NCBI RefSeq assembly: GCF_003173715.1
Contig: NZ_CP029550.1
Span: 3,626,501-3,690,500 of the forward strand
DNA length: 64,000 nt
Direction: 5' to 3'
Source: Methylobacterium durans
GTDB lineage: Bacteria; Pseudomonadota; Alphaproteobacteria; Rhizobiales; Beijerinckiaceae
In this document: positions 5,213-59,888 of the stretch, piece after piece
Position numbering within the stretch: position 1 is the stretch's first letter
How the letters are laid out: each line of letters starts with the position of its first letter
The notes under the pieces: model-generated
Seen by the model: only the letters and a program-made list of their open reading frames with translations
Told to the model about the DNA's origin: nothing
Database searches by the model: none
Made by a program: the position numbers and the translations under genes

Positions 5213-8153
5213 TCAAGCGCGCCTGTCGGCCAGGGCCTCGAGGCCGTTGAAGACGCGATGCAACTCGGTCTCGGCCGGGTCCATCACGTCGTCGAGCGTG
5301 TCCGGGGCGCGCGCGGCCGCGTCGAGCATCGCGCCCGTGATCCAGGCGCCCAGCCGTCGGTAGGATTCGAAGTCGCTCTCCGTGAAGAACTGGTTGAGGG
5401 TCGGGTCGTGGGGAAGGTCTTGCGCCGGCCGGCGCAGGCCGAGATCTCGATCGGGAGGGGATCGGAGAGCCAGGGCTTCAGGTAAAGGAGCCGCCCCTCC
5501 GCCCTCGGCTGCCCGTCGCGCGCCGGATAAGTAATGCGGGCGAAGGCGCCCTCCGCCCGCAAGCGCTTCTGATCCACCCTGATCGGCTTCGGGAAGTCGA
5601 TCGAGACCCCGAGATCGATGGTCGCGTACTGGATCGCGCGCCCGAGATCCTCGTAGGCGTAGGTCTGGTCCTGGCCCGCATCGACGACGAGGATCAGCGC
5701 GCAGCGCCGGCGCAGCATCTCGTAGAGGCCCAGATTGTCGAATTGGCCGCCATCGGACAGGTAGACGAAGGCACCGTCGTCCCGCGAGCTGCCGATCAGC
5801 TCGGACAGGAGGGCCGGCACGGCGTTGCGTGGGCCGCCACGGATCAGCTCGCCCTTCCGGAGCCCGATGCCGGGATTGGGAAGCCACGCCCCGAGCCGCA
5901 TGTTGAAGAGCGTCATCACGAAGGCGGTCAGGGCCGAGGAATGGTAGCCCATGTTGGGGCTCGCGGCGGCGCCCGAGATCGTCATCGCGGTTCCGAGGGT
6001 GATGCCCTTCGGCTCGTCGTGGATGCCGGTCTGGCGCTCGTCGCCCGCGTAGCTCTCGGTCGGGACGTAGGCGCCGGTCGCGGCGCCGTCGTCCGTGGAG
6101 CGGCGCAGCCGGGCCGAGCCGCAATGGAGCGGCGTGATCGTGAAGGAATCGGCCTTGCGCTCGGCCTGGGCCGGGTCGTAGCCCCGGGTCCGGTTGAGGG
6201 CGACGTTGATGACCGGGAACAGGCGCGGCGGCGAGCGGCGCGTGAAGGCGTCGGCCACCCGGAGGTTGTCGAGGGGATCGAAGCCGGTGAAGCGGTCCGG
6301 GTGCTTGGCGCCGCTCCGGCGTGCCGAGCCGAGGAAGCCGCGGATCAGGCGGCTCCGGTAGACGGCGTGCATCGAGAACCGGTTGAGGTTGATCAGCCCG
6401 CTGAGGAGCCAGGCGAGGCCTGCCGCAGCGATCACGAACGCGACACTCGCCGCGGTGATCGCGATCATCGTGGGCGCGGGGGAAAAACGCGAGGCGGCCC
6501 AACCGATTGCGACGGCGGTGGCGTGCCCGATCAGCACCAGAAGAGCGGTGCCGAACACGATGATCCCCGCATTGGTCAGGACCGAGAGCGGGACGAGCCG
6601 CGGCTTCTGCGCCTCGCCGCGCGCGGTGAAGGCCGTCATCGCGCTGCGGCCGATCCAGGCGACGAGGCCGCCCGAGGCGACGCCGCCGCCCGCGAGCGCG
6701 GCGATGGCCGAGCCGCCCCAATCCGACAGGTGCGATCCGCCGATCACCACGACGATGCCCGCAAGGCAGAGGCCGAGCACGACGATCAGCTTCGTCCCGT
6801 TGAGCCGGGCGAGCCATTCCCGGTCGAGGTCGCCCCGCAGGGCGTTGCGCCGCAGGGCCACGAACACCGTGGTGCGCAGGGTCTCGGCCAGCGCGATCCA
6901 GAGGGGCCGAGCAGCACCAGCCAGAAGATGTCGAGATCCTGGGCGAACCAGATGCCCCACCAGAGCAGGGCCGCCGAGGCGAGCGCGCTGACGATCCAGG
7001 CGAGAAGACCCCTCCGGAACAGCGTGACGTGCCAAACCCGTGCCAGCGCCTCGTCCCGCGCGTCGCGCGCCCCGTAGCGGCGGCTGGATTCCCAGAGGAA
7101 GGCGAGCCCGTAGGCGAGCAGGCAGATCGCGACGCTGAGCCCCGGCACGAGCAGGATCTGCGTCTCCGTCGCACCCGTTCGCCGCGGCGGCGCGGGGCAG
7201 GCGGCCGGCGTCGCCGGGTGGCAGGCGGTCCCGACGGCGGCGCCCGCGGGAGGACGCGCCTCCGCCGAGGCCGCCGCCGGCGGACACGGCTTCGCCGCCG
7301 GCTCGCAGGCGGGCGGCGGCCCCGTCCGGAACACTTGGTGGAGGTCCGCGATGTGGTGGTCGCTGAGGATGCGCGGCGCCGCCGCCATCGGCATCGCGAA
7401 GCACCAGACGAGGATCGGCACGATGATCCGGATCCGGATCTGGCCCGCGTCCGGTCCGAACGGGTGGGCCCGGTCGTCCCGCCTGATCCAAGAGGCTGGG
7501 AGGTCGGGATGACTGTGGCTCGGCACGCCGAGGATCGACCAGTACACGGCCGAGAGCAGGCACGCGCCCCCGACCGCCAGGAGCACGAACTCGGCGAGGT
7601 CGTGCCGGTGCGTCACGAGGGACGCCGTCGCGACGGCGTAGAGGAGCAGGGACGCGGCCACTGCGACGAAGACGGGCAGCAGCACGAACCAGTTGATCAG
7701 CGTGTTCCGCAGCCAGAGCAGGACACCCGTCAGGGTGTCGAGCGAGAGGAGGCCGGGCTCGGGCGCCAGGAAGCTCGTGTAGCGGCGCAGGGCGTGGACC
7801 GGCCCGCCGGGCCGGTCGCTGCCGGGACCGCTGATCGCGTCCTCGGCGGCCGTGACGCTGGCCCAGCGCGTCTGGCCCCCCGCCTCGTCGAGCTGTCCGG
7901 AGACCACCCGGGTCAGCCACGCGGCGATGTAGCCGCCGCCGGAGACCGTCGAGAGGTAGTGGAAATGGCCGAGGAGCCGGCGCGCGGCGAGGGCCTGTAG
8001 CACGCCGAGGCCGAAGGCGGCGCTGCGCACGCCCCCGCCCGACAGGCAGAGGGCGGCTGGCTGCGCCCCGTCCGGGAGTTCGAGGGCGTCCCGCTCGGCG
8101 GCGAGGGCCTCGTCGGTCGAGAGCGGCGCGACGGGATCGTGAGCGTGCGACAT
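5213..8153 (-). pseudogene. Large patatin-like phospholipase with membrane-spanning insert; two frame breaks, probably sequence errors
   Basis: After adding one base to the G run at 6903-6906 and one at 5411-5414, a single frame of about 980 codons runs from the ATG at 8153 to 5213. The N-terminus has the patatin glycine loop CLSGGGVRSAAFGLG (about 37-50) and a nucleophile elbow STVSGGGY (Ser71, with Thr in place of the first Gly of GxSxG). About nine hydrophobic segments follow between residues 120 and 430. The second catalytic element, LSDGGQFDNLG, lies near residue 800, so the Ser-Asp dyad is split by a membrane region. Patatins hydrolyse acyl esters of membrane lipids; the substrate here is unknown. 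A lipoprotein gene sits 10 bp upstream on the same strand. Confidence 0.8.
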
Positions 8154-8163
8154 CGCCGGCCCC

Positions 8164-8799
8164 TCAGGACCGGGTCAGGGCGAAGCTCAGGCCCTGGTTC
8201 AGCACGCGCCGGCAGAAGCGGTCGTCGAGGATCGGGTTGCGGGCGGCCGGCAGGCGGGTCTCGTCATACTTGCTGATGCAGGTGACGAGCATCGCGGCGA
8301 GGGCGGCCCGCTTGTCGGCGCCGGGGCCGATTGCGCCGTCCGGCTTGCTGACGAGGGCGACGAGGAGCGTGCCGTACTGGCTGAGGATCATCGCGTAGGC
8401 GTCGTGCCCGATCACGCCGTTGGAATAGGCTTGGCAGGCGGCGTAGAGCCCGTCGCGGAGCGCCAGCACGCCGGCGGTCCGGCCCTCCAGCGTCGTGACC
8501 TTCTCGGTCTGCGCGAAGCCGCCCGCGATGCTGCCGCTGCCCTTCTCGGCGATGGTCACGCTGGCATTGGCGTTGGCGTTGCGCCCGAATTCCACGGCGT
8601 AGTCGGGGCTCGGCTCCGTGCAGACGATGGGCCGGACGAGGCCGTCGGGCCCGGGTCTCGGGCGCTCGCTGACGAGGCGGAGATTGCCGGTCGTGGCGAG
8701 GGTGTTCGAGGTGCCGTACTGGAGTTGCGTCACCTTCAGGCTCGGCGAGTCGCAGGCCGCGAGCAGGCACAGGAACAGGATCGCTGCCGGAACGCGCAT
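8164..8799 (-). CDS. Predicted lipoprotein, partner of the patatin-like gene
   Basis: The 211-residue protein has a short hydrophobic signal and a lipobox LLAACDS (Cys16), so it should be lipid-anchored on the periplasmic side. The rest is predicted soluble, with the phrase NANANASVTIAEKGSGS and four further cysteines (in IVCTEP, AACQAYS, LVTCISK and DRFCRR), which may form disulphides. I recognise no family. It starts at the ATG at 8799 and ends 10 bp before the patatin-like gene on the same strand, so the two are probably co-transcribed and may work together at the envelope. Confidence 0.75.
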   Translation of the reverse strand: MRVPAAILFLCLLAACDSPSLKVTQLQYGTSNTLATTGNLRLVSERPRPGPDGLVRPIVCTEPSPDYAVEFGRNANANASVTIAEKGSGSIAGGFAQTEKVTTLEGRTAGVLALRDGLYAACQAYSNGVIGHDAYAMILSQYGTLLVALVSKPDGAIGPGADKRAALAAMLVTCISKYDETRLPAARNPILDDRFCRRVLNQGLSFALTRS

Positions 8800-8916
8800 G
8801 GAGGCCCCCTTCGTTCTCGCGGCTCGTTCGGCGCGCGTTATCCCGCCGCCCGTCTTTCGGGCGTGACTGGTCGAGGCGGGCCGATGCTCGGCACCGCCAA
8901 CTGCGAATAATCGCTA

Positions 8917-8946
8917 AGATTGATTTAATGCACCTGAGATTGATTT
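8917..8946. repeat. Direct repeat AGATTGATTT x2, 20-bp period
   Basis: Two identical decamers exactly 20 bp apart, about two helical turns, in the only AT-rich patch of this region. The phasing suits a dimeric regulator, but no function is known. Confidence 0.5.
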
Positions 8947-9063
8947 TGGGAAGTGCAAAAGCGGCACGGAGGCAGGGTTTCCCGTCGCTGCCCGCGTTCG
9001 TGTCCGGTTCCGTCCGCGCAGGAACTCCATGCAGACCCGTGGGACCGCCCCTTTCCGTCCGCC

Positions 9064-9091
9064 TTGCCTTCGGAGAGGCGCTCTGCTAAGG
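9064..9091 (+). promoter_or_regulatory. Putative rpsB promoter
   Basis: TTGCCT, 16 bp, CTAAGG; the element ends 117 bp before the rpsB start. Same layout as the elements before lepB and tpiA. Confidence 0.35.
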
Positions 9092-9208
9092 CCGCGCCCA
9101 TTCCACACGCGGAGCCGGCCTCATGCCTGAATGAGGCGTTTCCGGTGGCCGGACCCTTGCGGCCGGTCGCTTCCTCCGCGGCGGTATCAACCGGAGAGCA
9201 CACCGATC

Positions 9209-10279
9209 ATGGCCGTCGATTTCTCTATGCGTCAGCTCCTCGAAGCCGGCGCTCATTTCGGGCACCAGTCCCACCGCTGGAACCCGAAGATGCAGCCCTA
9301 CATCTTCGGCACCCGCAACAACATCCACATCATCGATCTCGCCCAGACCGTCCCGGCGATGCACCACGCGCTGCAGGCGGTGAGCGACACCGTCGCCAAG
9401 GGCGGCCGCGTGCTGTTCGTCGGCACGAAGCGCCAGGCGTCGGACACGATCGCCGAGGCCGCCAAGCGCTCCGCCCAGTACTACGTCAACTCCCGCTGGC
9501 TCGGCGGCATGCTGACCAACTGGAAGACCATCTCGGGCTCGATCCAGCGCCTGCGCAAGGTTGACGAGACGCTCGAGGGCGGCGGCCAGGGCCTGACCAA
9601 GAAGGAGCGCCTGATGCTGTCCCGCGAGAAGGACAAGCTCGAGAAGGCGCTCGGCGGCATCAAGGACATGGGCGGCGTGCCCGACCTCCTGTTCGTGATC
9701 GACACGAACAAGGAGCAGCTCGCCATCAAGGAGGCCCAGCGCCTCGGCATCCCGGTCGCCGCCATCGTCGACACGAACTGCAACCCGGACGGCATCACCT
9801 ACGTGGTCCCGGCCAATGACGACGCCGGCCGCGCCATCGCCCTCTACTGCGATCTCGTCGCCCGCGCCGCCATCGACGGCATCTCGCGCGCGCAGGGCTC
9901 GTCGGGCATCGATCTCGGCGCCTCCGAGGCTCCGGTCGCCGAGGAGCTGCCCCCGGCCAACGACGATCGCGGCCCCGCGGTCGACGCCGAGGCGCTGAGC
10001 GCGGCCGACGTCGAGGCGCTCGCCGAGTCGACGGAGCATTTCGAGCTCCTCGCCGCCCCGCGCGGCGCGCCGGACGACCTGACCAAGCTCAACGGCGCCG
10101 GTCCGCAGATCGTGCAGAAGCTCAACGATGCCGGCATCTACCATTACTGGCAGATCGCCGCGATGAGCCCCGAGGACGTCGCCCGCGTGGACGGCGACCT
10201 GAAGCTCAACGGCCGCTTCGGCCGCGACGGCTGGGTCGAGCAGGCCCGCGCCTTCGTCGAGGCCGCCGCCGCCGCCTGA
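9209..10279 (+). CDS. rpsB: 30S ribosomal protein S2 with C-terminal extension
   Basis: S2 sits at the head-body junction of the 30S subunit. The start at 9209 gives [20 protein letters not shown], the canonical N-terminus, preceded by GGAGAG. The core with [11 protein letters not shown] and [11 protein letters not shown] is conventional and ends near residue 235. About 120 further residues form an acidic linker and a helix-hairpin-helix-like module ([20 protein letters not shown]), giving 356 residues against about 240 in E. coli. Such tails are known from alphaproteobacterial S2 proteins. Two hairpins lie between rpsB and tsf. Confidence 0.97.
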
Positions 10280-10286
10280 GCACGCC

Positions 10287-10310: not shown

Positions 10311-10334
10311 CGGACGGCATGCGACACCCTTCGG

Positions 10335-12343: not shown

Positions 12344-12907
12344 ATGGCCACACCGGACTTCGATCTGAACGACCTCAAGCGCCGCATGCAGGGCGCCGTG
12401 ACCTCGCTCTCGAAGGATCTCGGCTCGCTGCGCACCGGCCGCGCGACGCCGAGCCTCCTCGATCCGATCCAGGTCGACGCCTACGGGGCGATGATGCCGA
12501 TGGCGCAGGTGGCGACCGTGAGCGTGCCGGAGCCGCGCCTCCTCAGCATCTCGGTCTGGGACCGCAGCATGATCACGGCCGTCGAGAAGGCGATCCGCGA
12601 ATCCGATCTCGGCCTCAACCCGCAGACGGAAGGGCAGACCATCCGCCTGCGCATCCCCGAGATGAACGAGCAGCGCCGCAAGGAGATGGTCAAGGTCGCC
12701 CACAAATACACCGAGGAGGCCCGCGTCGCCGTGCGCCACGTGCGCCGCGACGGGCTCGACCATCTCAAGAAGCTCCTCAAGGACAGCGCCATCAGCGAGG
12801 ACGACGAGAAGCGTCAGGCGGCGGAGGTCCAGAAGGCCACCGACCACCACATCGCCGAGATCGACGGGGTGCTGGCCTCGAAGGAGAAGGAGATCATGCA
12901 GGTCTGA
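12344..12907 (+). CDS. frr: Ribosome recycling factor
   Basis: RRF splits post-termination ribosomes together with EF-G. The 187 residues match the family length (185-187). The sequence shows the three-helix bundle with [20 protein letters not shown] and the Arg-rich ending of the first helix. The C-terminal helix contains [19 protein letters not shown], a strong RRF signature. It lies between pyrH and uppS. Confidence 0.97.
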
Positions 12908-13082
12908 GCCGGGCCTGCGACGGGCGAGGGGGCGTTCCGCACCTTCGCGGGCCGCGTCCTTCGCGGGGCATGACCTGAAAATGCCCCAAGGATGCGCCAG
13001 AGTGGCTCTCGGTGCGGTATCGGCGCGAGCGATGGAGAGACGCGTGGAGCAGGCGGAGCGCGCGCGTCAGGCCGAGGCGGGC

Positions 13083-13859
13083 ATGACGGGCGACGGCCAG
13101 ACGGCGGCACGACCGGGCCAGGGGGCCGTCGCGTCGGCCGCGTCCTGCCCCGCGCCGGGGCACGTCGCCATCATCATGGACGGGAACGGGCGCTGGGCCG
13201 CCCGCCGCGGCCTGCCCCGCGTCGAGGGGCACCGGCGCGGCGTCGAGGCCGTGCGGCGCGCCGTGCGCTCGGCCATCGACCTCGGCATCCGCTACCTGAC
13301 CATCTACAGCTTCTCCTCCGAGAACTGGCGGCGCCCGCCCGCCGAGGTCTCCGACCTCATGGGCCTCCTGAAGCTGTTCGTGCGCCGCGACCTCGCCGAC
13401 CTCCATTCCAGCAACGTCCGCATCCGCATCATCGGCGAGCGCGAGGGCCTGAGCCCCGACATCGCCGCCGTCCTGCGCGAGGCCGAGGAGCGCACCCGGG
13501 CCAATACCGGGCTCACCCTCGTCGTCGCCTTCAATTACGGCGGGCGGCAGGAGATCCTGGGCGCCGTGCGGCGCCTGGCCGCCGCCGTCGCCGAGGGCCG
13601 CCTCGCGCCGGAGGCGATCGACGCCTCGCGGATCGCCGACGCCCTCGACACCGCCGGCATCCCGGACCCGGACCTCGTGATCCGCACCTCCGGCGAGCAG
13701 CGCCTCTCGAATTTCCTGACCTGGCAGACCGCCTATTCCGAATACGTGATCGTGCCGGAATTCTGGCCGGACTTCGACCACGCGGCCTTCGCGGCCGCCA
13801 TCGACGAGTTCCACCGGCGCGACCGCCGCTTCGGCGGCCTCAGCCAGAAGGCCGGATGA
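13083..13859 (+). CDS. uppS: Isoprenyl transferase (undecaprenyl diphosphate synthase)
   Basis: Adds isopentenyl units in cis to make the C55 carrier for peptidoglycan and surface glycans. The catalytic Asp is in [13 protein letters not shown] (Asp33 with this start). Later signatures include [11 protein letters not shown] and [15 protein letters not shown], with Ser in place of the usual first Gly. ATG codons at 12981 and 13032 would add 34 or 17 residues; 13083 gives an N-terminus close to the family norm and 258 residues. The stop overlaps cdsA as ATGA, coupling lipid-carrier and phospholipid synthesis genes. Confidence 0.93.
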
Positions 13860-14730
13860 TGAGCGCGTCCGGCGAGGTCTCACCGGGCCCGATCCCGGGC
13901 CGCGCGCGCCTGGGCGGGCGCGAACTCGTGCTCCGGGTCGTCTCCGGCGTGATCCTGGCCGGCATCGTCGTCGCGGCGCTCGTCGAGGGCGGCTGGCCCT
14001 TCGCCCTCGTCTGGCTGGTGGCCGGCATCGTCGGCGCGGCCGAGTGGATCGGCATGAGCCGCACCCGGCCGGGCGGCTTCCTGATCCTCCTCATCGGGGC
14101 GACGCTCGGCGGGCTCGCGCTCTGCGCGCAGTCGGGCACGTCGCCGCTGGCCGCGCTCGCCGTCGTCGTGAGCGGCGCGGCGGCCGTGCTCGTCGTCGCG
14201 GGCGGCGGCTGGGGCGGCTGCGCGCCGTCGCGGGCCTCGCGGCGGCGGCCGTGATCGTGCTGGTGCCCTCGGCCCTCAGGGACGATCCGGAGATCGGCAT
14301 CGTCGGACCGGCCTGGATGTTCGCCGTCGTCTGGTCGACGGACATCGCCGCCTACTTCACCGGCCGCTCCTTGGGCGGCCCCAAGCTGATGCCCCGGATC
14401 TCGCCGAAGAAGACGTGGTCGGGCGCGATCGGCGGCCTCCTCGCCGCCGTCGCCGCCGGCACCGGCTTGATGGCGCTCGCCCGCGTCTACGGCTGGAGCA
14501 GCCTCGCCGAGGCGCCGCTGGAGCAGGTCGCCCTCGCGAGCGCCGTCGCCTCGATTCTCAGCCAGGCCGGCGATCTCGTCGAATCCGGCCTGAAGCGGGT
14601 CTACGGGGTGAAGGATTCCGGCCGCTCGATCCCCGGCCACGGCGGCGTCATGGACCGGCTCGACGGCTTCTTCGCCGTCGCGATCCTCGTCGGCGCCTAC
14701 CTCGTCCTGCGCCACCTCGCGGCGGCCTGA
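13856..14730 (+). pseudogene. cdsA: Phosphatidate cytidylyltransferase; frame broken once, probably a sequence error
   Basis: CdsA makes CDP-diacylglycerol from phosphatidate and CTP, the branch point of phospholipid synthesis. The first part (from ATG at 13856) runs as [10 protein letters not shown] with hydrophobic segments. The frame is lost at the G run 14211-14214, and the remainder continues in another frame to 14730. One added G joins them into about 291 codons, the normal length. The second part contains SPKKTWSGAIGG and SILSQAGDLVESGLKRVYGVKDSG, the CdsA signature. CdsA is normally essential and the gene lies between uppS and dxr as usual, so true inactivation is unlikely unless a second copy exists. 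Confidence 0.92.
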
Positions 14731-14743: not shown

Positions 14744-15922
14744 GTGTCTCTCACCGTCACCGTCCTCGGGGCCACCGGCTCGATCGGCCGCTCCACCGCC
14801 GATCTCCTCGCCCAGCATGACGGCCGCTTCCGGGTCGGCGCCCTCGTCGGCGGGAAGGACGCGGCCGCGCTCGCCAAGCTCGCCCGCGAGATGCGCGCCG
14901 ATTTCGCCGCGCTCGCCGACGAGAGCGCGGGCCCCGCGCTCCGCGAGGCGCTCTCCGGCTCCGGCATCGCCTGCGGCGCGGGCGAGGGCGCCGTGCTGGA
15001 GGCGGCGTCCCGCGAGGCCGACATCGTGGTCGCGGCGGTGAGCGGCGCCGCGGGCCTGAAGCCGACCCACGCGGCGCTGCGCCTCGGCCGCACCATCGCG
15101 CTCGCCAACAAGGAGAGCCTCGTCTGCGCGGGCCACGCCTTCATGCGCGACGCCGCCCGCTACGGGGCGCGCCTCCTGCCGGTCGATTCCGAGCACAACG
15201 CGCTGGCCCAGGCGCTCGGCGACGGCCGCGTCTCGGACGTCGCCAAGATGACCATCACCGCCTCCGGCGGCCCGTTCCGGACTTGGACGCGCGAGCGCAT
15301 CCAGGCGGCCTCACCGGCCGAGGCCGCGGCCCACCCGACTTGGTCGATGGGCATGAAGATCAACATCGATTCCGCCTCCCTGATGAACAAGGGGCTGGAG
15401 CTGATCGAGGCGCACCATCTCTTCGCGATCGAGGCGGAGCGGCTCGACGTGATCGTGCACCCGCAATCGATCGTGCACGGCCTCGTCTACTGGCGCGACG
15501 GGGCCGTGACCGCCGGGCTCGCCATGCCCGACATGCGGGTGCCGATCGCCCATTGCCTCGGCCTCGGCGACCGGCTCGCGATCCAGCGCGGGCGGAACCT
15601 CGACCTCGCGGCGGCCGGCAGCCTCACCTTCGAGCCCGCCGACGAGGCCCGCTTCCCCTGCTTGGCGATCGCCCGCGCGGCGCTGGCGGACGGTGCGGCC
15701 GCGCCGACCGTGATGAACGCGGCGAACGAGATCGCGGTCGCGGCCTTCATCCGCGGCGAGATCGCCTTCTACGGCATCGCTGATCTGGTGGAGCGGGCCT
15801 GCGAGCACTTCGCCGGAACCTACCGGGCGGCGCCCGCCGACGTCGACGAGGCGCTGGCCATCGACGCGCATGTGCGCGCCTGGAGCACAGAGGCCCTGCC
15901 GCAGATGCGCGCCGCGGGCTGA
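14744..15922 (+). CDS. dxr: 1-deoxy-D-xylulose 5-phosphate reductoisomerase
   Basis: DXR (IspC) makes 2-C-methyl-D-erythritol 4-phosphate with NADPH, the first committed step of the non-mevalonate isoprenoid pathway. The 392-residue protein starts at a GTG with AAGGAG 8 bp upstream. The NADPH-binding loop is LGATGSIGRSTADLL. The metal-binding region is LLPVDSEHNALAQAL, followed by ITASGGPFRTW and MGMKINIDSASLMNKGLELIEA. It follows cdsA by 13 bp. Downstream it converges on tetR with only 7 bp between stops; rseP, the usual neighbour, comes after the efflux cassette. Confidence 0.96.
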   Translation: MSLTVTVLGATGSIGRSTADLLAQHDGRFRVGALVGGKDAAALAKLAREMRADFAALADESAGPALREALSGSGIACGAGEGAVLEAASREADIVVAAVSGAAGLKPTHAALRLGRTIALANKESLVCAGHAFMRDAARYGARLLPVDSEHNALAQALGDGRVSDVAKMTITASGGPFRTWTRERIQAASPAEAAAHPTWSMGMKINIDSASLMNKGLELIEAHHLFAIEAERLDVIVHPQSIVHGLVYWRDGAVTAGLAMPDMRVPIAHCLGLGDRLAIQRGRNLDLAAAGSLTFEPADEARFPCLAIARAALADGAAAPTVMNAANEIAVAAFIRGEIAFYGIADLVERACEHFAGTYRAAPADVDEALAIDAHVRAWSTEALPQMRAAG

Positions 15923-34075: not shown

Positions 34076-34220
34076 CGGGCCGGCTGATGTTCGAGTGGAC
34101 GGGCGGGCGACGTTCGGGCGGGAAGGATCGACCGGCCCGGCCGCGGGCCTGTAGCATGCGCGGACGGACGCGTTAAGAAATCGTCGCACGGGGCGGACTT
34201 TCCAATCCCGCGCGCGGACG

Positions 34221-36485
34221 GTGCGGCAAGCGATGGCGCAGGGGGCGGCAGGGAAGGGGACCCTCGCGATCCGCGCGGCCGGCCGCCTGCCCCCTCTCGG
34301 CCTCTGGGTGTCGGCAACGCGCGGCTGGCTCGCGGCGGAACTGGCGCAGGAGGCCGGGCAGCGGCGCTTGTTCCCCTGGCTCGCGGTCGCCTTCGGCGGG
34401 GGCATCCTCGCCTATTTCTCTCTCACGGGCGGTGAGCCGGCGCTCTGGGCTGCCCCGATCGCCGCGGCTCTGTGCCTCGCGCTGACGCCCCTCCTCGGAG
34501 CGCGGCCCGCCGGACTCGCCCTGGTGCTCGCCCTCGCCGCCGCGCTCCTGGGCTTCGGGGCGGCGGCGTGGCGCGTGGCGCGGGTCTCGGGCCCGATCCT
34601 GGCGCGGACGAGCATTGCGCCGCTGACCGGGCTGATCGAGGCCCTCGACGAGCGGGAGGAGGGGGCGCGGCTGATCGTCCGTCTGGCGAGCTTCGGGAGC
34701 CTGCCGCCCGAGGCGCGGCCCCTGCGCGTGCGCGTGACCTACCGGACGCAGCAGGCGCTCAAGCCCGGCGATTTCATCGCGGCCAAGGCCCGCCTGCTGC
34801 CGCCCCCGGAACCGGCCCGCCCGGGCGGCTACGATTTCGGGCGCGACGCCTTCTTCCGCGGCATCGGCGCCGTGGGTTCCCTTCTCGGGGCGATCGAGGT
34901 GCGGCCGGCGCCCGAGCCGGTGCCGCCGGCCCTGCGCCTCTCGGCCGCCATCGACGGGGCGCGCAACGCGCTGACGCGGCGCATCACCGACGCGAATGGC
35001 GGGCAGGCGGGCGCCGTCGCGGCGGCGCTGGTGACGGGCAAGCGCGGGCTCATCGCGCCCGAGACGAACGACGTGCTGCGGGCCGCCGGGATCTACCATG
35101 TCGTCTCGATCTCCGGCCTCCACATGGTGCTGGCCGCCGGGGTCGTGTTCTGGCTGGTGCGCTCCGCGCTGGCGCTCGTCCCGCATCTCGCCCTGCTGTG
35201 GCCGATCAAGAAGATCGCCGCCGGTTTCGCGATGACGGGCGTCACCGCCTATTGCGCGTTCTCCGGCTGGGACGTCGCCGCCGAGCGGGCTCTCATCATG
35301 ACCCTGATCATGCTCGGCGCCATCCTGGTCGATCGGCCGGCGTTGAACATGCGCAACCTCGCGCTGGCGGCCTTCGTGGCGCTCGCGCGCGAGCCGGAGG
35401 CCCTGCTCGGCCCGAGCTTCCAGATGTCGTTCGGGGCAGTGGCGGGGCTGACCGCCTGCGCGCGCTTCATCGATGGCCGGTTGTTGCGGCGTGCAGGCGA
35501 CGGCCTTGCGGGGCGTGCGATCGGCCTCGCATCGACGGCCGTCTTCGGTACTCTGCTCACCACGCTGGTGGCGCAGATCGCGACGGCGCCCTTCGCCACC
35601 TTCCATTTCCAGACGATCCAGCCCTTCGGCCTCGTCGGCAACGCGCTGACCTTGCCCCTCGTCTCGCTGGCCGTGATGCCAGCCGCCGTGCTCGGCATCC
35701 TCGCCTACCCGTTTGCCCTCGATCAGCCGGTCTGGTGGCTGATGGGGCAGGCGGTCCGCGGGATGCTCGCGATCTCCGGCTGGATCGGTGGCTTCGGGCA
35801 GGCCACGATCGTGGTGCCGGCCTTCGGGGTCGGCGGCCTGGCTCTGCTGACCCTCGGCCTCCTCGTCGCGGTCCTGCCCGTCTCGCGCCTGCGCCGGATC
35901 GCGATCGTCCCGGTCGCGCTCGGGCTCCTCACGGCGGCAGCGCCCGAGCGCCACGACATCTTCATCGACCGGGAGGGCCGGGGAGCGGCGGTTCGGGGGG
36001 GCAGCGGCCGCCTCATTGCCCTCGGCCGGCCCTCGTCCTTCGTCCTCGAACAGTGGCTGAAGGCGGACGGCGACGCGCGCAGAGCCTCCGAGGCCGGGGA
36101 AGGGGCAACCTGCGACCGGCTCGGCTGCACCTTGAGGGCGTTCGACGGGCGGCAGGTCGCGCTCGCGCGTGACAAGCGGGCGCTGCCCGAGGATTGCGCG
36201 CGGGCGGACATCCTCATCACCCCGCACAGCGCCCCGGCGGGCTGCGCGGCCGGCCTCGTCATCGATCGCGCCGCGCTCGCGCGCTCGGGCGCCGTGGCGA
36301 TCCGCCTGGACGCATCGGGCCCAGTGGTCTCCGGCGCCCGTGAGACCGCACGCTCGCTGCCGTGGCGGCCCCTCGCGTCACGTCCGGCTCAGCCGAGCCC
36401 CGCCGTCCTGCGGCAACGTCCCGATGAGGCCGCCTCCGAGGAAGCGGACGCGGCGCCGGAGTCCGGAGCCGAATCCCTTCAGTAG
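34221..36485 (+). CDS. comEC: ComEC/Rec2-family membrane protein with reduced C-terminal domain
   Basis: ComEC forms the inner-membrane channel for DNA uptake in competent bacteria. The 754-residue protein has an N-terminal DUF4131 region (about 55-220), then the multi-spanning competence domain with [32 protein letters not shown] and [16 protein letters not shown]-terminal part shows only remnants of the metallo-beta-lactamase-like domain ([16 protein letters not shown]) without a His cluster. The start is a GTG, with an ATG at 34233 possible. It overlaps lexA by 7 bp tail to tail. Whether it imports DNA is not shown. Confidence 0.88.
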
Positions 36486-39035: not shown

Positions 39036-39048
39036 GGGCTGGTCCGGA

Positions 39049-41864: not shown

Positions 41865-43555
41865 ATGCGGGGCTTGGACAATGTGAAGCTGTTGGGCAAG
41901 ATCGCGATCCCACTCGCCATCTCGCTGGTCGTCACGCTCGGCCTCGTCGTGTTCGCGTGGCACGCGCTCGCCGGCCTGGCCCAGCAGATCGATGGCCTCA
42001 TCGACGTCCAAGTGGCGCGGCAGGAGAACATCCTCCGCGTCGCGGCGGACGTCACGGAGACAGCGCTCCAGAACCGCAACATCATCATCGAGAGCGACTC
42101 CGGGAGGATCGCGAGCTACAAGTCGCGCCAGGACAAGGCCAAGATCTCGGCCCTCGCCGCGATGGACAAGCTGACTGCGCTCGCGAACACGCCTGAGCGC
42201 CGGGCGACGAACCAGGAAATTCGCGCGCTCATCGACGGATATTTCATCATCCTCGATCGCTCGACGGCGCTCGGCCTCAAGGGGATGACAAGGCTGCCAT
42301 GGCCGTCGCGCAGAACGAGGCCGCTCCGATCCGGCGAACCATCACCGAGCGCGTCGCCACGCGGATGGAGGCCATCGAGCGGGAACTCGCCGAATCCCGG
42401 GAGAGGGCGGAGCGGACCGCGACCCGTTCGTCCCTGCAACTCGTGGCCGCGGCGGGGGGCGGCCTCGTCGTGGTCCTCGGCCTCGCCGCCGCCATCGCGA
42501 TCGGTGCGATCGTACGTCCCCTCGGCCGCGTGACCGGAGCGATGGCTGCGCTCGCGGCCGGCGATCTCGACGTCGCCGTCGCGGGGGCCGAACGTCGGGA
42601 CGAGATCGGCGCCCTGGCCCGCGCGCTCGCCGTCTTCAGGAAGAACGCGGTCGAGGCCCGGCGCCTCGCCGCGATCCAGGCCGATGAGGATGCCGCGAAG
42701 ATGCGCCGTGCCGAGCGCCTCGACGGGCTGACCCGGGCTTTCGAGCGGGAGGCGGGCAATCTGACCGACAGCCTCACCGCGGCCGCGACCGAGATGGAGG
42801 CCACCGCCGATGCCATGACGGGCATCGCCGAGCAGACGAACCGGCAGGCGGTCGCCGTAGACGCCGCGGCCAACCAGACTTCCGGCAACGTCCAGACCGT
42901 TGCGTCCGCCACCGAGGAGCTCGCGACATCGATCCAGGAGATCACGCATCAGGTCGCCCGCTCGGCGGAGATCGCCGGCACGGCGGTCGCTGCTGCGCGC
43001 GAGACCGATGCGACGATCCACGCCCTGGCGGAGACCGCCGAGAAGATCGGGGCGGTTATCGCGATGATCTCCGACATCGCGGGTCAGACCAACCTGCTCG
43101 CCCTGAACGCGACGATCGAGGCGGCGCGAGCGGGCGAGGCTGGGCGCGGCTTCGCGGTGGTCGCGACCGAGGTGAAGGAACTCGCGGCCCAGACGAGCCG
43201 GGCGACCAGCGAGATCGCCGGGCAGATCGACGCGATTCAGGGCGCGACCCGCGGCGCCGTTGACGCGGTACGCGGCATCGGGACCACCATCGACGGCATG
43301 GCGGACATCGCGACGCAGGTCGCCGCGGCGATGGAGGAGCAGGGGGCCGCCACGCGGGAGATCGCCCGCAACGTGCAGGAGGCGGCGCGCGGCACGGAGC
43401 AGGTCACGGGCCGTATCGGCGACGTGCGGAAGGGGGCGGGGGAGACCGGCTCGGCGGCAACGCAGGTCCTGGGCGCCGCTCGCGAACTCGCGATCCACTC
43501 GGCAACCCTGGGTCAGTCAGTCCGCAGCTTCCTCGCCGACGTGAAGGCGGCCTGA
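41865..43555 (+). pseudogene. Methyl-accepting chemotaxis protein; frame broken once, probably a sequence error
   Basis: The first part starts at ATG 41865 (MRGLDNVKLLGKIAIPL) and carries a first membrane helix at about 12-33 and a four-helix-bundle-like periplasmic domain. The frame is lost at the G run 42281-42284; one added G gives [16 protein letters not shown] and a continuous frame of about 563 codons. The second part has membrane helix 2, a HAMP domain ([14 protein letters not shown]) and a signalling domain with the tip [20 protein letters not shown]. No C-terminal CheR pentapeptide is seen. It is oriented against the trp genes around it. The ligand is unknown. Confidence 0.9.
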
Positions 43556-47018: not shown

Positions 47019-47143
47019 CGGACGCGGGCCTGTCTGTCGTCGTTCCCGCGCGGGCGGTGCTCGCGGCGGGCGTGCCGGTGTTGTAGAAATTGCGGTCGCC
47101 CGCGATAGACCATCCGCGAGCATCAGCAAAGGGTGCCGGCGGT

Positions 47144-50374: not shown

Positions 50375-50773
50375 ATGGTCTCGATCTCCGGACTTCCCGC
50401 CTTCCTGGCCTATTTCGCCGCGGCGCTCGGCCTCGTCGGGCTCTATCTCGCGGTCTACCTCACCGCGACGCCCCACAGGGAGATCGCGCTCATCCGGGCC
50501 GACAACAACGCGGCCGCGATCGCCCTCGGCGCGAGCCTGATCGGCTACGCCCTGCCGCTCTCGATGGCGATCTACAACGCGCAGACGCTGCTCGACTGCA
50601 TCATCTGGGGCCTCGTCGCCCTCGTCGTGCAGATCCTGATCTACTGGCTCGTCCGGCTCCTGGTGCCGGACCTCTCGGCGCGCATCGCGCGGGGAGAGGT
50701 CGCGGGCGCCATCCTCCTCGCGGCGGCATCGATCGCCGGCGGTCTCATCGACGCCGCCGCGATGACCTACTGA
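50375..50773 (+). CDS. DUF350 (YjfL/UPF0719-like) membrane protein
   Basis: A 132-residue protein with four membrane helices arranged as two similar halves (LAYFAAALGLVGLYLAVYL, IALGASLIGYALPLSMAIY, IWGLVALVVQILIYWLV, AILLAAASIAGGLIDAAAM). This is the DUF350 layout. It is followed at 14 bp by a DUF1190 gene and then by a YjfC/YgiC-type ATP-grasp gene. The same grouping is known from the E. coli yjfI-yjfC cluster. Biochemical function is not established; an envelope role is inferred. Confidence 0.8.
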   Translation: MVSISGLPAFLAYFAAALGLVGLYLAVYLTATPHREIALIRADNNAAAIALGASLIGYALPLSMAIYNAQTLLDCIIWGLVALVVQILIYWLVRLLVPDLSARIARGEVAGAILLAAASIAGGLIDAAAMTY

Positions 50774-50787
50774 GGAGGTTCCGGGCG

Positions 50788-51393
50788 ATGGCGCGGCAGG
50801 GCGGCATCCTCACCGATCGGCCCGAGGGCTGGCCGGGACCCAAGCGGTCGCAGACGATCTCCCTCTTGCTCCTGTGCGGGGCCGGTGCCGCGGCGATCGG
50901 GCTCGGCGCCCTCGATCCCTCGCAGCGCGAGGAGGACGTGCTGGTCTACCCGAGCGCCGAGGCCTGCGCCGCCGGGCGGATCCGCACGGATGCGGATTGC
51001 CGGCGCGACTACGCCACCGCCCGCGCGGCCTACCCCTCCGCCGCCCCGCGCTACAGCAGCGAGCCGGCCTGCGAGAGCCACCACGGCAGGGGCCACTGCC
51101 TCGCCGACACCGCGGCCGGGCTGGCGCCGGGCGGCCGCTACCTGCCCGTCATGGCCGGTTACGTGATCGGGCGGCGGGCCGAGCAGGATCTGCCGCCGCA
51201 GCCCGTCTTCGACCACGCGCCGGAGGCCGCCGGGCATGGCGGCGGAGGCGGCTACTGCACCGGCTCGGGCGGCCGCATCGCGACGGGCAGCGGCGGCCGC
51301 AGCGCCAGCGCGCGCGTCTCCTCGGCCGCGGTTCGCCCGGTCTCGTTTGGCGGCTTCGGCGCGACCGGCCGCGCCCATTCCAGCGGCGGCTGA
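50788..51393 (+). CDS. DUF1190 (YgiB/YjfM-like) protein
   Basis: A 201-residue protein with a strong GAGGAGG ribosome-binding site. An N-terminal basic stretch (GPKRSQTISLLLLCGAGAAA) holds a hydrophobic anchor or signal. The body contains paired cysteines in EACAAGRIRTDADCRRDYA and EPACESHHGRGHCLAD, as in YgiB/YjfM, and ends in a low-complexity Gly/Ser tail (GGGGGYCTGSGGRIATGSGG). Family members are exported and accompany the ATP-grasp enzyme encoded next. The stop overlaps that gene as TGATG. Function unknown. Confidence 0.8.
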   Translation: MARQGGILTDRPEGWPGPKRSQTISLLLLCGAGAAAIGLGALDPSQREEDVLVYPSAEACAAGRIRTDADCRRDYATARAAYPSAAPRYSSEPACESHHGRGHCLADTAAGLAPGGRYLPVMAGYVIGRRAEQDLPPQPVFDHAPEAAGHGGGGGYCTGSGGRIATGSGGRSASARVSSAAVRPVSFGGFGATGRAHSSGG

Positions 51394-52552
51394 TGCGCCG
51401 CCTCCGCCTCGGCGAGCGGCCCGACTGGCGCGAGACCGCCGCGGCAGCGGGCTTCCACTTCCACAGCATCGGCGGCGCGCCCTATTGGGACGAGAGCCAT
51501 GCCTACGCATTCAGCCTCGCGGAGATCGAGCAGGACATCGAGGCGGCGAGCGCGGACCTCCACGCGCTCTGCCTCGCCTTCGTGGACCGGGCGGTCGACG
51601 ACGAGCGCGTCCTCGTCTCGCTCGGTCTCCCCGAAACAGCCTGGGATGCCGTCCGCGCGAGCTGGCGCCGACGGGACCCGAGCCTCTACGGCCGCCTCGA
51701 TCTGAGCTACGGCGGCGCGGGCCCCGCGAAGCTCCTCGAATACAATGCCGACACGCCGACGGCCCTCTACGAGAGCGCCGTCTTCCAATGGCTGTGGCTG
51801 GAGCAGATGCTCGCCGCCGGCCGCCTGCCAGCGGGGGCGGATCAGTTCAACATCCTCCACGAACGGCTGATCGGGCGCCTGCGCGCCGTGGTTCCAGGCG
51901 GCCATCTCGCGCTCGCCTGTGACGTGGACGCCCCGAGGATCGGGCCACGGTCGCCTATCTCGAGGATTGCGCCCGGCAGGCGGACCTCGCCACGCGCTTC
52001 CTCGATCTCTCCGAGATCGGCCTCGATGGGGATGGCCGCTTCGTCGATCCGGACAATCAGGCGATTCCCGCTCTGTTCAAGCTGTATCCGTGGGAATGGG
52101 CGTTCCGGGACCCGTTCGGGTCACACGTCGGGGATGCCGGGACCCGTTTTCTGGAGCCGCCCTGGAAGGCCGTCCTGTCGAGCAAGGGGCTGCTGCCGCA
52201 CCTTCACGCGATGGCGCCGCACCATCCGAACCTGCTGCCCGCCTATTTCGAGAGCGACCCAGCCCGGGCCGCGCTCGGGGGCAGCTTCGCGCGCAAGCCG
52301 ATCCTCTCCCGCGAGGGCGCCAATATCGAGATCCGGCGCGACGGCGCGCTCATCGCGGCCTGCGGCGGCCCTTACGGCGCGGAAGGGTCGGTCCACCAGG
52401 GCCTCGCCGAATTGCCGGACTTCGATGGGCGATACCCCGTGATCGGGTCCTGGATCGTCGGCGACGAGCCCGCCGGCCTCTGCATCCGCGAGAGCGCGGG
52501 GCTCATCACGACGGACGGGGCCCTGTTCGTGCCCCATCTGATCCTGCCCTGA
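51393..52552 (+). pseudogene. Glutathionylspermidine synthase-like ATP-grasp enzyme (YjfC/YgiC family); one frame break, probably a sequence error
   Basis: The frame from ATG 51393 (MRRLRLGERPDWRETAAAAG) is lost at the C run 51931-51934. One added C restores a frame of about 386 codons ending at 52552, essentially the length of E. coli YgiC and YjfC. Before the break: GFHFHSIGGAPYWDESHAY, LSYGGAGPAKLLEYNADTPT. After it: NQAIPALFKLYPWEWAF, SFARKPILSREGANIEI, IGSWIVGDEPAGLCIRES. The fold resembles the C-terminal synthetase of GspS, which forms an amide bond with ATP; the substrate of this family is unproven. Overlaps DUF1190, and the trio is probably one operon. Confidence 0.85.
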
Positions 52553-55141: not shown

Positions 55142-55201
55142 GACGCGCCCCGGGCGCACCCGCGTCGGCGGTGCCGCGCGTCGGGTTTCGCCGCCGCGGG
55201 A

Positions 55202-57000
55202 TCAGCGCACGCGCCAGACCTTCAGGAAGGTCCCGGGGACGTCCAAGGGTTCGAGCCATGCGGGCGGCGCCTCGCCCTCGGCAAGCCGGGTCGCGAAGGC
55301 CTTCTCCGGTCCGATGTCGAGGGCCGGCTGTCCGGGGCAGGCGACGAGATAGGTGATGCCGCGCGCGGCCACGTGGCGGCGCAGGTCCGCCTCGCTGCCG
55401 CCGAGGCCCTCGATGCCGGCGACGAGGCCGGAGATCGCCCGGTGGTAGGGCGCGGCGACGATCGCGTGGGGCGTGTGCAGGAGGATCGCCGGGCCCATCC
55501 GGATCAGCGCGAGCATTGTTCCCGGCGGCAGGTCGGCGAGCGGCGTCACCGCCTCGGGCGTCAGGCAGCGCAGGGCCGTCCCGGCGCGGTCTTCCATTTC
55601 GAGGGGCCGCAGGAGCGCGGCGGCGTGGAAAGGCAGCGTCCAGACGGTGCTGATCAGCGAGAGGGCGAGGGCCGCGGCGCCGAGCCGGCGCGCGGGGGGA
55701 TCGCGGATGGACCCGCCAGCGCGATTGCCCGCGCGAAGACCGGCGCGGCGACGAGGGGCAGGATGCCCATCGGGATGTAGGTGCCCCGGAACTGGACGAT
55801 GCCGATGGCGAGGCCGGGCCACAGGAACAGGGCCGCGACGGCGAAGTAGCGGCGATGCTCCGGCGCGCCGCGGTGCGCCCGGACGGTGGCAACGACGCTG
55901 GCGACCAGCAGCGACGGATAGAAAGCGAAGATCTCCCAGCGCTGCTGCGCGACGAAGCTGCGGAGCGAGATCATCTCGTTGACGGTGTCGAGCCACTTCT
56001 CCTTCACGAGACGCGGCATGCCGGTGAAGGGACCCCCGAGGCAGGCCGGGTAGAACGCGGCGAAGCCCGCGACGACGAGAATGCCGAGCATCCCGGCGAA
56101 GGCGAGACGCGCCCGCGGTGTCGCGAGACGTCTGTCCGTGGCGGCGCAGGTGAGCGCGGTGAGGCCGCCCCCGGCCGCGAGCCAGAGCCAGGGCGGCGAG
56201 AGCGCGTCGCAGGCCGCGACCGGCCAGAGATGCGGCGCGGTCTGGAGCGCGTAGAGAAAGGGCGCCGCTACGGCGAGACTGGCGCCGAAGCCGAGGAAGG
56301 CCGGAAGGCGCTCGCGGCCGCGCCGCACCCAGTCGATCATCAGGAACAGGGCGCCGACCGCGATGAAGGGAAGCGCCTCCAGGCCGACCGCGAGGGAGAG
56401 AGCGGTGACGAGGCCCGCAACGGTTCCCGCGCGTCCCCCGCCCCGGATCACGCAGAGGGCGAGGCCGAGCATCGCGAAGAGCTGGACATTGTGGTGATCG
56501 ACCCGGCCCGGGGCAAATTGCAGCGTCAGGCCGAAGGTCTGCAGCGCCGCCACGATGGCGAGCATCGCTGTCTGCGGGCCGAAATCCGTGCGCACGCCCC
56601 GGTGGAGAACGACGGCGTAGAGCGTGAGCAGGACGGGCGGCCAGAACGCCGCCGTCAGCCCGAGCGCCAGCGCCTGTCCGGTAAGCGGGGTCAGCAGCAA
56701 GAGAAGCGCCGCCATCGGCGCATCGACGAGGCGCGACCAGTGGCTCGGCACGCCCTCCGGCGGCACGAACCGGTACTGCGTGTTGTCGAACCAGCCCTGG
56801 CCCATCACGAGGTCGCGCACCTCGGCGAGGCGCATGGCGTCATCGGTGTCGCGCACGGAGAGGTGGTCGACCGTCGCGAGGATCTCGGCCGGCGTCACGA
56901 GCGTCAGCGCCGAGACGGCGACGAGGAGCCAGAGCAGCAGGTTCGGGCTCAGCCGCGCGGGCCGCGCGCCGGCAAGGTCCGGAGCGGCGGCGCTCAGCAT
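55202..57000 (-). pseudogene. Polytopic GT-C-like membrane protein; one frame break, probably a sequence error
   Basis: From ATG 57000 the frame runs to the G run at 55694-55699; one added base joins it to the frame ending at 55202, giving about 599 codons. Around 12 hydrophobic segments are visible. The first large loop has HLSVRDTDDAMRLAEVRDL, where Asp-Asp resembles the metal-binding motif of GT-C glycosyltransferases that use polyprenyl-phosphate sugars. TQYRFVPPEGVPSHWSRLVD follows. The C-terminal part after the break contains a soluble domain (DLPPGTMLALIRMGPAIL) ending TFLKVWRVR. A glycosyltransferase role is inferred from topology and from the glycan-type genes to the right. Confidence 0.7.
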
Positions 57001-57212
57001 GGCGCGCGCCGGGCACAGGTCTCGATCGCTGCCATGACGGCCCTCTCGACGGCGTTCGTGGGATCGGGGGAAGCCTAGCGCGGCCGGGTTAAGCTGCGGT
57101 CAATCCTGCGGAACGCGCGCGGGCGCCGCGCGCTTGAGCGCTTCCTTAACCATCCGGCCTGCAAGCTCTCCAGCGAACTGCGCCGTGTCGGCGCTAGGGC
57201 CGAGGGGCCCCG

Positions 57213-58730
57213 ATGCCGGAGCAGCGAATGAGCTACCACACCGAGACGCTGGTCATCGGCGCCGGTCCCGCCGGGCTCACGGCCGGATATCTGCTGTCGA
57301 AGCACGGGCGCGACGTGCTCGTCCTCGAACGCGACCCGCATCAGGTCGGCGGCATCAGCCGCACCGTCTCGCACAATGGCTACCTGTTCGACATCGGCGG
57401 CCACCGTTTCTTCTCCAAGGCGAAGGCCGTGGTCGATCTCTGGGACGAGATCCTGCCCGACGATTTCATCGAGCGCCCGCGCCTGTCGCGGATCTACTAC
57501 AAGGGCAAATACTACGCCTACCCGCTCAAGGCGTTCGAGGCGCTGAGAAATCTCGGCCTCCTCCAGAGCGCGGCCTGTGTCGCGTCCTACCTCTACGCGC
57601 GGGCGCGCCCGATCCGGGAGCCGCGGAGCTTCCACGAGTGGGTCCGCAACCAGTTCGGCGAGCGCCTGTTCTCGATCTTCTTCAAGACCTACACCGAGAA
57701 GGTGTGGGGCATGTCCTGCGACGCGATCTCGGCCGACTGGGCGGCGCAGCGAATCAAGGGCCTCGACCTCGGCGCGGCGATCCGCGACGCGCTGATCCGC
57801 TCGCTCGGCTTGAAGCCGCGTGCAAAGCCGGGCGAGCCGGTGATCAAGACGCTGATCGAGTCGTTCCGCTATCCGCGCCGCGGCCCCGGCATGATGTGGG
57901 AGGCGGCCGCGGCCAAGATCGCCGCCCAGGGCGGGCGGGTGCTGCTCGACCGCGGCGTCGACGGCCTCAGCTACGACGCGGCGACCGGCGTGTGGACGGT
58001 CTCGGTCCAGCGCGGGGACGGCTCGCGGGAGACCTACACGGCACGCCACGCGATCTCGTCGGCGCCCGTGCGGGAACTGGTCGAGGCGATCAAGCCGCGC
58101 CCGATGAGCACCTTCCAGGCCCGCGCCCTGCAATATCGCGACTTCCTCACGGTGGCGCTGATCGCGCGCAGCCGCGCCGATTTCCCGGACAACTGGATCT
58201 ACATTCACGACCCGTCGGTTCTCGTCGGGCGCGTGCAGAACTTCCGCTCCTGGTCGCCCGAGATGGTGCCGGACGCCGACCACACCTGCCTCGGGCTCGA
58301 GTATTTCTGCTTCGAGGGCGACGGGCTCTGGACGTCCTCGGACGCCGACCTCGTGGCGCTCGCCAAGCGCGAGATCGGCAAGATCGGCCTGATCGCGCCC
58401 GAGGACGTCGTGGACGCCTGCGTGGTGCGCCAGCCGAAGGCTTACCCGGTCTACGACGAGGATTACCGCCAGAACGTCGCGATGGTGCGCCTGGAGCTGG
58501 AGCGGGATTTCCCGACCCTGCACCTCGTCGGCCGCAACGGCATGCACAAGTACAACAACCAGGACCACGCGATGATGACGGCGATGCTGACCGTCGAGAA
58601 CATCCTCGCCGGCCACCGTCGACACGACATCTGGAGCGTCAACGAGGACGCGGAATACACCGAGGCCGGCGTGTCCGGGGCCGAGGAGGCGCTCGGCAGC
58701 GAGCGCCTCGTGCCCCGCAGGGTCGCCTGA
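57213..58730 (+). CDS. NAD(P)/FAD-dependent oxidoreductase, UDP-galactopyranose-mutase-like
   Basis: A 505-residue flavoprotein. The N-terminal dinucleotide-binding loop is LVIGAGPAGLTAGYLLSKHG followed by the ribose-binding VLVLERDPHQVGGISRTV. FDIGGHRFFSK resembles UGM and protoporphyrinogen-oxidase relatives. A middle block FKTYTEKVWGMSCDAI and the C-terminal VGRNGMHKYNNQDHAMMTAM complete the FAD site. Such enzymes occur in surface-polysaccharide loci, where they may alter nucleotide or lipid-linked sugars; the substrate is unknown. An in-frame ATG at 57228 with GGAG upstream is an alternative start. It is the only plus-strand gene in this cluster until 63684. Confidence 0.82.
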   Translation: MPEQRMSYHTETLVIGAGPAGLTAGYLLSKHGRDVLVLERDPHQVGGISRTVSHNGYLFDIGGHRFFSKAKAVVDLWDEILPDDFIERPRLSRIYYKGKYYAYPLKAFEALRNLGLLQSAACVASYLYARARPIREPRSFHEWVRNQFGERLFSIFFKTYTEKVWGMSCDAISADWAAQRIKGLDLGAAIRDALIRSLGLKPRAKPGEPVIKTLIESFRYPRRGPGMMWEAAAAKIAAQGGRVLLDRGVDGLSYDAATGVWTVSVQRGDGSRETYTARHAISSAPVRELVEAIKPRPMSTFQARALQYRDFLTVALIARSRADFPDNWIYIHDPSVLVGRVQNFRSWSPEMVPDADHTCLGLEYFCFEGDGLWTSSDADLVALAKREIGKIGLIAPEDVVDACVVRQPKAYPVYDEDYRQNVAMVRLELERDFPTLHLVGRNGMHKYNNQDHAMMTAMLTVENILAGHRRHDIWSVNEDAEYTEAGVSGAEEALGSERLVPRRVA

Positions 58731-58746
58731 GGGGCGACCGGAACCC

Positions 58747-59888
58747 TCAGCTGCGGCGCAGGAGGCGCTTCGCCTCGATCCGCGCCGCCTCCTCGAAGCG
58801 CGCGAGGCGCAGGCGGCGCTCCAGCGGGAGGCCGCCGCAGCCGGGGGGAGGGCGATCACGTCCGCCACGCTCTCCCGGTCCCGGTACAAGCTCTCGAGGG
58901 CCGAGCCCGACAGGGTCGCCGAATCGAGCCTGTCCGCGAAACCCGTGTCGTGCATCGCGCGCACGATCCGCTCCTCGAGGAGGAGGCCGGGCGCGAGCGC
59001 CCGCCGATCCTCGTCGAAGGCGGTCTTGAGGAGCGTGGCGGTCCTTCCCGCCACCAGGGCGAGGCTGATCGCGACCGGCTGCCCGTCGAGGCTCAGGGTG
59101 TCGGCGCGGGGCTGCACGGGTCCTGCGCCCTCCGCGAAGAGAGCGCGGGCCAGCGCTGCCGTCGCCGGGCTGCAGGCCATCGCCGTGCCGGCCGAACCCT
59201 TCCAGCCGGATCGTTCGAGCCGCAGGAACGCCTCGACCGACCGGGTCAGGGCCTCGCCGCCGGTCGCCGTCTCGAACGCGACCACGCCGAGATCCGCCAT
59301 GCGGCGCTCACGTCGCCGCAGGTCCTTCAGGCGCGACCGGTGCGGATGCCCGTCGAGGAAGGCTTGGTAGGTCGGGCGCCGCTCCAAGACCGGTCGATCG
59401 AAGCACGAGACCGTGCCGATGGCCCAGCCCGCGTCCCGCAGGGCTGCCAGGAGGGCTGCGCCGCCGGGTGAACCCGTCGGCAGCAGCGGCCAGCGCCACG
59501 CCTGGCTGCCCGTGGCGGCGGCAAGCCCGTCGCTGAGAGCGGCCAGGATCTCGGCTGGATCGCCGTCCGCGGCGACGAGCGGCGCCGTGGCGGTGACGAA
59601 GGCCGAGAGGAAGGGGCGCGCGGTGCGTGCGCCGAGGCCGGAGAGGTCGCGGCGCAGCGCGAAGGGCAGGGCGGCTTCGAGCCGGTTCCCCCGCCAGACC
59701 GTGACGACGCGCGCGGATTCTGGGGCGAGGCCCGCCGCCCGGTGCGCTGCGAGGACGTGGCGGCTGAAATGCGGGTGCGACCGCTGCGCGCGCCGCACGA
59801 GCGCGTCCCATGCGGCTGCCGAGCGGTCGAGTTCGGCAAGGCTGATGATCTCGGTGCGGAGCGCGCCGGTTCGGGGCAGAGGGATCAT
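58747..59888 (-). pseudogene. GNAT-family (CelD/BcsL-type) acyltransferase; C-terminus shifted, probably a sequence error
   Basis: From ATG 59888 (MIPLPRTGALRTEIISL) the frame is normal for about 350 codons. At the G run 58843-58848 one base appears missing; adding it gives GCGGLPLERRLRLARFEEAA and a stop at 58747, about 380 codons in all. As written, the frame runs on through unrelated sequence. The protein has the Acetyltransf_6 layout: RSRLKDLRRRERRMADLG, FLRLERSGWKGSAGTA and AISLALVAGRTATLLKTAFDED. Relatives act in exopolysaccharide or cellulose loci. The ATG overlaps the stop of the flippase gene. Confidence 0.8.

Follow-up and report, generated by a model that had tools for sequence, protein, structure and literature searches.

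Six genes in a 64,000-nucleotide stretch of the Methylobacterium durans genome are interrupted by seven breaks of the reading frame, and we judge these breaks to be very probably (roughly 95%) errors of the assembly rather than features of the organism. The stretch, hereafter the window, covers positions 3,626,501-3,690,500 of a 6,788,375-base single-contig genome (6.79 Mb; G000) that is listed as 99.93% complete. A read type that systematically drops one base in G/C-rich tracts, with the drops left uncorrected in the consensus, would account for the breaks. The case for a technical artifact combines the direction bias of the losses, the intact genes of relatives, the G/C-tract context, the interruption of two single-copy genes of central metabolism (cdsA and nadA), and the lack of a clear relaxation of selection.

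Direction of the frame breaks

All seven breaks are net one-base losses relative to intact relatives, and the chance of seven out of seven falling in one direction is p = 0.016. Most of the window has collinear counterparts, 81-90% identical, in the two closest relatives, G021 and G083. Upon three-way alignment, a base present in both relatives is absent from the source genome at 5410, 6902, 14210, 42280, 55695, and 58845, with divergence hindering the naming of the lost base at 42281 in G021 and at 55694 in both. The loss at 51931 lies in a stretch that is missing from G021 and G083 and is seen against all three other relatives aligned. Intact open reading frames (ORFs) of relatives match the window in two frames by tblastn at 6903, 14211, 42281, 51931, and 55694 (2, 1, 1, 1, and 19 relatives' ORFs, respectively, a single genome perhaps contributing more than one of the 19); gene alignments reveal the other two breaks, at 5410 and 58845. 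An earlier note, made from the letters of the window alone, had already described seven one-base losses, and the ORF matches and alignments agree with it. Its run positions hold at six sites, the first run lying at 5410-5413 and not at 5411-5414. The comparison of the runs with relatives that it proposed found none of the breaks shared, six sites having been compared with two relatives and the seventh with three others.

The gene lengths that the same note obtained by repair are plausible for five of the six genes, for which intact relatives encode 988 and 1038 (the patatin-like protein, differing at the C-terminal end), 291, 579, 599, and 380 residues. In the patatin-like gene, the Pfam Patatin domain lies in the N-terminal piece, both relatives match in two frames at 6903/6906, and the loss near 5410 is seen against G083. 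The first frame of the glutathionylspermidine synthase-like gene matches the GSP_synth profile only as far as position 160 of 371; the copy in relative G022 matches it completely. No Pfam family was found in the gene of about 599 codons.

The bias extends beyond the window. We sampled 632,643 bases of the source genome (9%, window included), together with 457,270 bases of G021 and 207,092 of G083, which supply counterparts for parts only. A first, whole-gene gap scan returned many spurious gaps in diverged ends and was superseded by stricter criteria, under which frame-affecting gaps were counted pairwise by the same method for the source genome and for relative-versus-relative controls. Placing G021 genes on the source genome gave 31 gaps (24 one-base losses, 2 one-base gains, and 5 others; 230 genes, 257,856 bp), and G083 genes gave 18 (11 losses, 3 gains, and 4 others; 135 genes, 160,077 bp). 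The controls yielded 7 gaps for G021 genes on G083 (3 losses, 1 gain, and 3 others; 131 genes, 150,159 bp) and 6 for G083 genes on G021 (0 losses, 1 gain, and 5 others; 132 genes, 150,036 bp). The excess over the controls is made up of one-base losses. In the reverse comparison, source-genome genes showed 18 gains versus 3 losses in G021 (of 23 gaps) and 9 versus 1 in G083 (of 13). Of the 37 unique places that the strict and unpolarized comparison identified outside the window, 23 hold just one single-base loss and 3 just one single-base gain; the remaining 11 have larger or multiple gaps.

Private changes were assigned to a genome in a polarized three-way set of 379 alignments covering 158,919 source-genome bases, in which a gene enters up to three times with each event counted once, and from which genes longer than 7,500 bases, gene ends, and clustered gaps are excluded. 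The source genome has 15 private isolated frame-affecting gaps (13 one-base losses, 1 one-base gain, and 1 other), compared with 10 in G021 (1 loss, 6 one-base gains, and 3 others) and 3 in G083 (1 loss, 0 gains, and 2 others). The resulting ratio of losses to gains, 13:1 in the source genome versus 2:6 in the relatives, is significant (Fisher p = 0.002); its independent part is 9:1 because three of the 13 losses are sites picked in the earlier note and one, 47021, falls outside any gene. The systematic, direction-biased technical loss proposed in that note is borne out by this spread beyond the window and by the base present in both closest relatives at six of the seven sites.

Two candidates for further breaks were rejected. 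At 34086, it is G021 that differs, the window matching G083; at 47021, the PpiD/SurA-like protein of a relative starts just downstream. The latter site is a one-base loss private to the source genome just upstream of the PpiD/SurA-like gene start, the same type of loss outside a gene. A further weak two-frame tblastn match to one relative's ORF lies near 39047, at 53-65% identity.

Kind of base lost

Each of 27 one-base losses was classed by finding the base whose removal from the relative's sequence best reproduces the source-genome letters. The sites 34086 and 47021 and two multi-gap events were set aside before this context count. Reading the alignment rows gave 10 clear losses of a lone base, 7 shortened runs of at least three, 2 runs of two, 5 ambiguous cases, and 3 without resolution; one loss was reclassed as ambiguous because the second relative has a longer run. 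An automatic tally of the same losses gave 18, 7, and 2, since it scored each ambiguous case as lone. Nearly all of the losses fall within G/C tracts.

Rates were computed from 28 events, 5 of them left out as unresolvable. Losses per 10,000 opportunities were 2, 12, and 88 for G/C runs of 3, 4, and 5; 0.7, 4, 26, and 26 for a lone base between like runs with joined lengths of 3, 4, 5, and 6; and 0.2 for other lone G/C, all being relative rates only because the opportunities come from all called G021 genes, part of the events derive from G083, and ambiguous cases are divided among classes. By this measure, the loss rate of a lone base at a joined length of 5-6 lies above that of a unit in a true run of 4 and below that of one in a run of 5. 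Removal of single bases would take two forms: a run of G or C is shortened by one unit, or a lone base separating or bordering G/C runs is dropped so that the runs merge. Together, these would remove roughly one base per 11-15 kb of compared genes.

That every break is a simple homopolymer undercall, as the earlier note supposed, is unlikely. Run shortening is supported at two of the seven window sites (6903 and 42281), and runs of at least three are clearly shortened in 7 of the 27 classed losses. Repair by adding one base to the run presupposes such shortening. At three window sites (5410, 51931, and 58845), however, relatives have an interrupted rather than a longer run; there, as in 10 of the 27 losses, a lone base was removed and the run exists only after the loss. 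Sites 14211 and 55694 fit neither class clearly. Undercalling is therefore already contradicted as the sole cause. The note's remark that all breaks lie within runs holds for the letters as they stand, but the error itself partly creates this pattern because a lost lone base merges its neighboring runs.

As to the source of the drops, we favor pore-based reads whose basecalling errors were not polished out with short reads, an explanation that is probably correct; another long-read platform is a possible but clearly less likely origin. Lone-base loss could come from pore-based calling and would not obviously come from flow-based chemistry. A more speculative and rather improbable idea is that lone-base losses mark a modified cytosine before a G tract that the basecaller skips, in which case the error map would double as an unintended map of a chemical DNA modification in the strain.

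Genes affected and selection after the breaks

The losses strike genes whatever their importance, with the sole cdsA and the sole nadA both split. The most telling gene, at 13856-14730, is identified as cdsA by its place between uppS and dxr and its match to the cytidylyltransferase family in two pieces. PF01148 matches both pieces, as two partial matches in two frames, and the intact ORF of a relative encodes 291 residues. No further PF01148 match was found anywhere in the genome at E values up to 0.001. All 40 other genus genomes searched have one PF01148 match over the cutoff, which runs from position 2-3 to position 257-263 of 264 in one frame without stops; 4 of the 40 have an extra weak match under the cutoff. 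Outside the window, nadA (429725-430605 of G000) is likewise split into two partial matches, both under the cutoff; a further gap that affects the frame lies closer to the start of the gene, and no second nadA was found in the genome. The product of CdsA, CDP-diacylglycerol, is required for the main membrane lipids, and cells normally need both cdsA and nadA, which belong to central metabolism. The need for CdsA, with named exceptions, is described in the available text of PMC5404519. Also broken outside the window are zwf, a motB-like gene, a Kdo hydroxylase gene, and parts of a multidrug efflux cluster.

Codon differences relative to G021 have the same synonymous share downstream of the breaks (1394:677 synonymous to nonsynonymous) as elsewhere (12590:6162). 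Nonsense codons in the source genome number 13 in 71,368 relative to G021 genes and 3 in 44,905 relative to G083 genes, compared with 12 in 41,722 and 4 in 41,666 in the controls; there is no excess of in-frame stops over the controls.

Real decay, in which the genes are pseudogenes of the living strain, is accordingly very unlikely. The chemotaxis receptor and the patatin-like protein may be dispensable, relatives carry a few frame differences of their own, and the comparison with G083 shows a slightly reduced codon ratio past the breaks. Decay is hard to square, however, with 13 losses versus 1 gain, with nonsense codons that are not in excess, with the unrelaxed codon ratio relative to G021, and with the sole cdsA and nadA being hit: a pseudogene should be dispensable or have a second intact copy, and no other cdsA or nadA was found. 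Because a very young pseudogene would show no relaxation either, the evidential weight falls on cdsA, nadA, and the direction bias. A mutator lineage, for instance one without mismatch repair, that truly lost run bases is less probable still. One-base losses do cluster in runs, and their rate climbs with run length up to five; slippage, however, is expected to yield gains too and to spare lone bases between runs, and cdsA and nadA would again be broken. Programmed frameshifting or transcript slippage, by which the cell would read across the breaks, is exceedingly improbable: selection looks largely intact on either side of the breaks, but such readthrough would be needed in many unrelated genes at short runs, where slippage needs longer ones, and the same genes are single-frame in relatives.

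Several points weigh against an assembly artifact at all of these places. Relative to G083, codon differences downstream of the breaks (352:182) compared with those elsewhere (7647:3402) lean slightly toward relaxation, a difference given without a significance test. The tally of losses is zero for G/C runs of at least six (0/70) and for joined lengths of at least seven (0/257), counts being small; a simple length model would put most losses in those longest runs. Some of the strict events are probably not gene breaks here, namely 34086, 47021 and 47078 (a short way before a start codon), and 53090 (a gene end). The controls also hold breaks; a first, looser tblastn search placed 6 in 128 for G083 genes on G021 versus 10 in 157 and 10 in 134 on the source genome. 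In the text available from PMC5404519, cdsA is dispensable in some streptococci. Finally, the call at every site comes from comparing sequences rather than from reads.

A few observations concern the surroundings of these genes. The part of the window at about 50.4-52.5 kb is missing from G021 and G083 alike; this stretch (approximately 50475-52517), which carries the glutathionylspermidine synthase-like gene, is also missing at the collinear place in relative G006 and is matched in G022. The interval 34721-36188 (about 34.7-36.2 kb) is unmatched in the G021 contig and matched in G083, and a 4.4-kb stretch is matched at E ≤ 1e-200 in 100 of 111 genus-group genomes, including the source genome. 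Among named organisms, Methylobacterium species supply the best relatives of a protein from the window, which together with the 4.4-kb matches places the genome in that genus. Elsewhere in G000, four one-base-loss breaks lie within 10 kb at approximately 2,322,800-2,332,400, in zwf and genes of the multidrug efflux cluster, and the region near 5.3 Mb has counterparts scattered across many contigs of the relatives.

Table 1. Broken genes, frame breaks, and intact neighbors of cdsA in the window (window coordinates)
Feature	Position	Strand	Remarks
Patatin-like phospholipase gene	5213..8153	-	Three frames via two losses
cdsA, phosphatidate cytidylyltransferase	13856..14730	+	Two frames; start inferred from uppS overlap in G083
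Methyl-accepting chemotaxis protein gene	41865..43555	+	Two frames; Pfam MCPsignal and HAMP; relative 579 aa
Glutathionylspermidine synthase-like gene	51390..52552 (start approximate)	+	Two frames
Gene of ~599 codons	55202..57000	-	Two frames; relatives 597 and 599 aa; 19 relatives' ORFs
GNAT-domain acetyltransferase-like gene	58746..59888 (ends approximate)	-	Break near C-terminus; relative 380 aa
Frame break 1	5410..5413		One base fewer than both relatives, whose run is interrupted here
Frame break 2	6903..6906		Run one base shorter than in both relatives
Frame break 3, in cdsA	14211..14214		Two relatives differ here, so either kind of loss fits
Frame break 4	42281..42284		G083 copy has a run one base longer; G021 too divergent here
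Frame break 5	51931..51934		Another base interrupts the run in 3/3 relatives aligned
Frame break 6	55694..55699		Place too variable to tell which base went
Frame break 7	58843..58848		Another base interrupts the run in both relatives
frr, intact	12344..12907	+	In frr-uppS-cdsA-dxr block
uppS, intact	12981..13859	+	In frr-uppS-cdsA-dxr block
dxr, intact	14744..15922	+	In frr-uppS-cdsA-dxr block

Relation to known assembly errors and consequences

False homopolymer deletions and the false pseudogenes they create in long-read assemblies are already well described, as in the available portions of the reports on Homopolish (PMC8011154) and Kastor (PMC12007338), to which the following comparison is confined. 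Homopolish addresses the uncorrected systematic errors of nanopore-only bacterial assemblies, mainly homopolymer indels, which shift reading frames; 151-5298 pseudogenes are given for R9.4 data after Racon-Medaka (PMC8011154). The errors proposed here are likewise systematic, frame-shifting indels, but many involve lone bases between runs rather than homopolymers. According to the Kastor report, indel errors in long-read assemblies are mostly false deletions, with runs of four to five as the commonest preceding context, deleted non-repeated bases have a small incidence, and completeness scores overestimate quality (PMC12007338). The M. durans losses would similarly be mostly false deletions, whereas A/T runs lead in the Kastor data and nearly all losses fall in G/C tracts here. 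Lone-base deletions, rare in that report, are at least as many as run shortenings among the clear cases in our sample. What is distinct is how common the lone-base form is, and we make no claim that the form is unreported. In Kastor, a correction that would split a run has its score halved (PMC12007338). Tools that assume errors merely shorten homopolymers would mishandle lone-base losses.

The artifact is thus ordinary in kind and useful as a warning. If the same density held over all genes of the chromosome, roughly 270-510 false losses would be expected (an extrapolation at 81% coding), despite the listed completeness of 99.93%. The earlier advice to treat pseudogene calls in this genome with caution gains force from the split sole copies of cdsA and nadA, the lack of a nonsense excess, and the lack of clearly relaxed selection. 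Claims about gene loss, pseudogenes, or metabolism drawn from this M. durans genome are unsafe.

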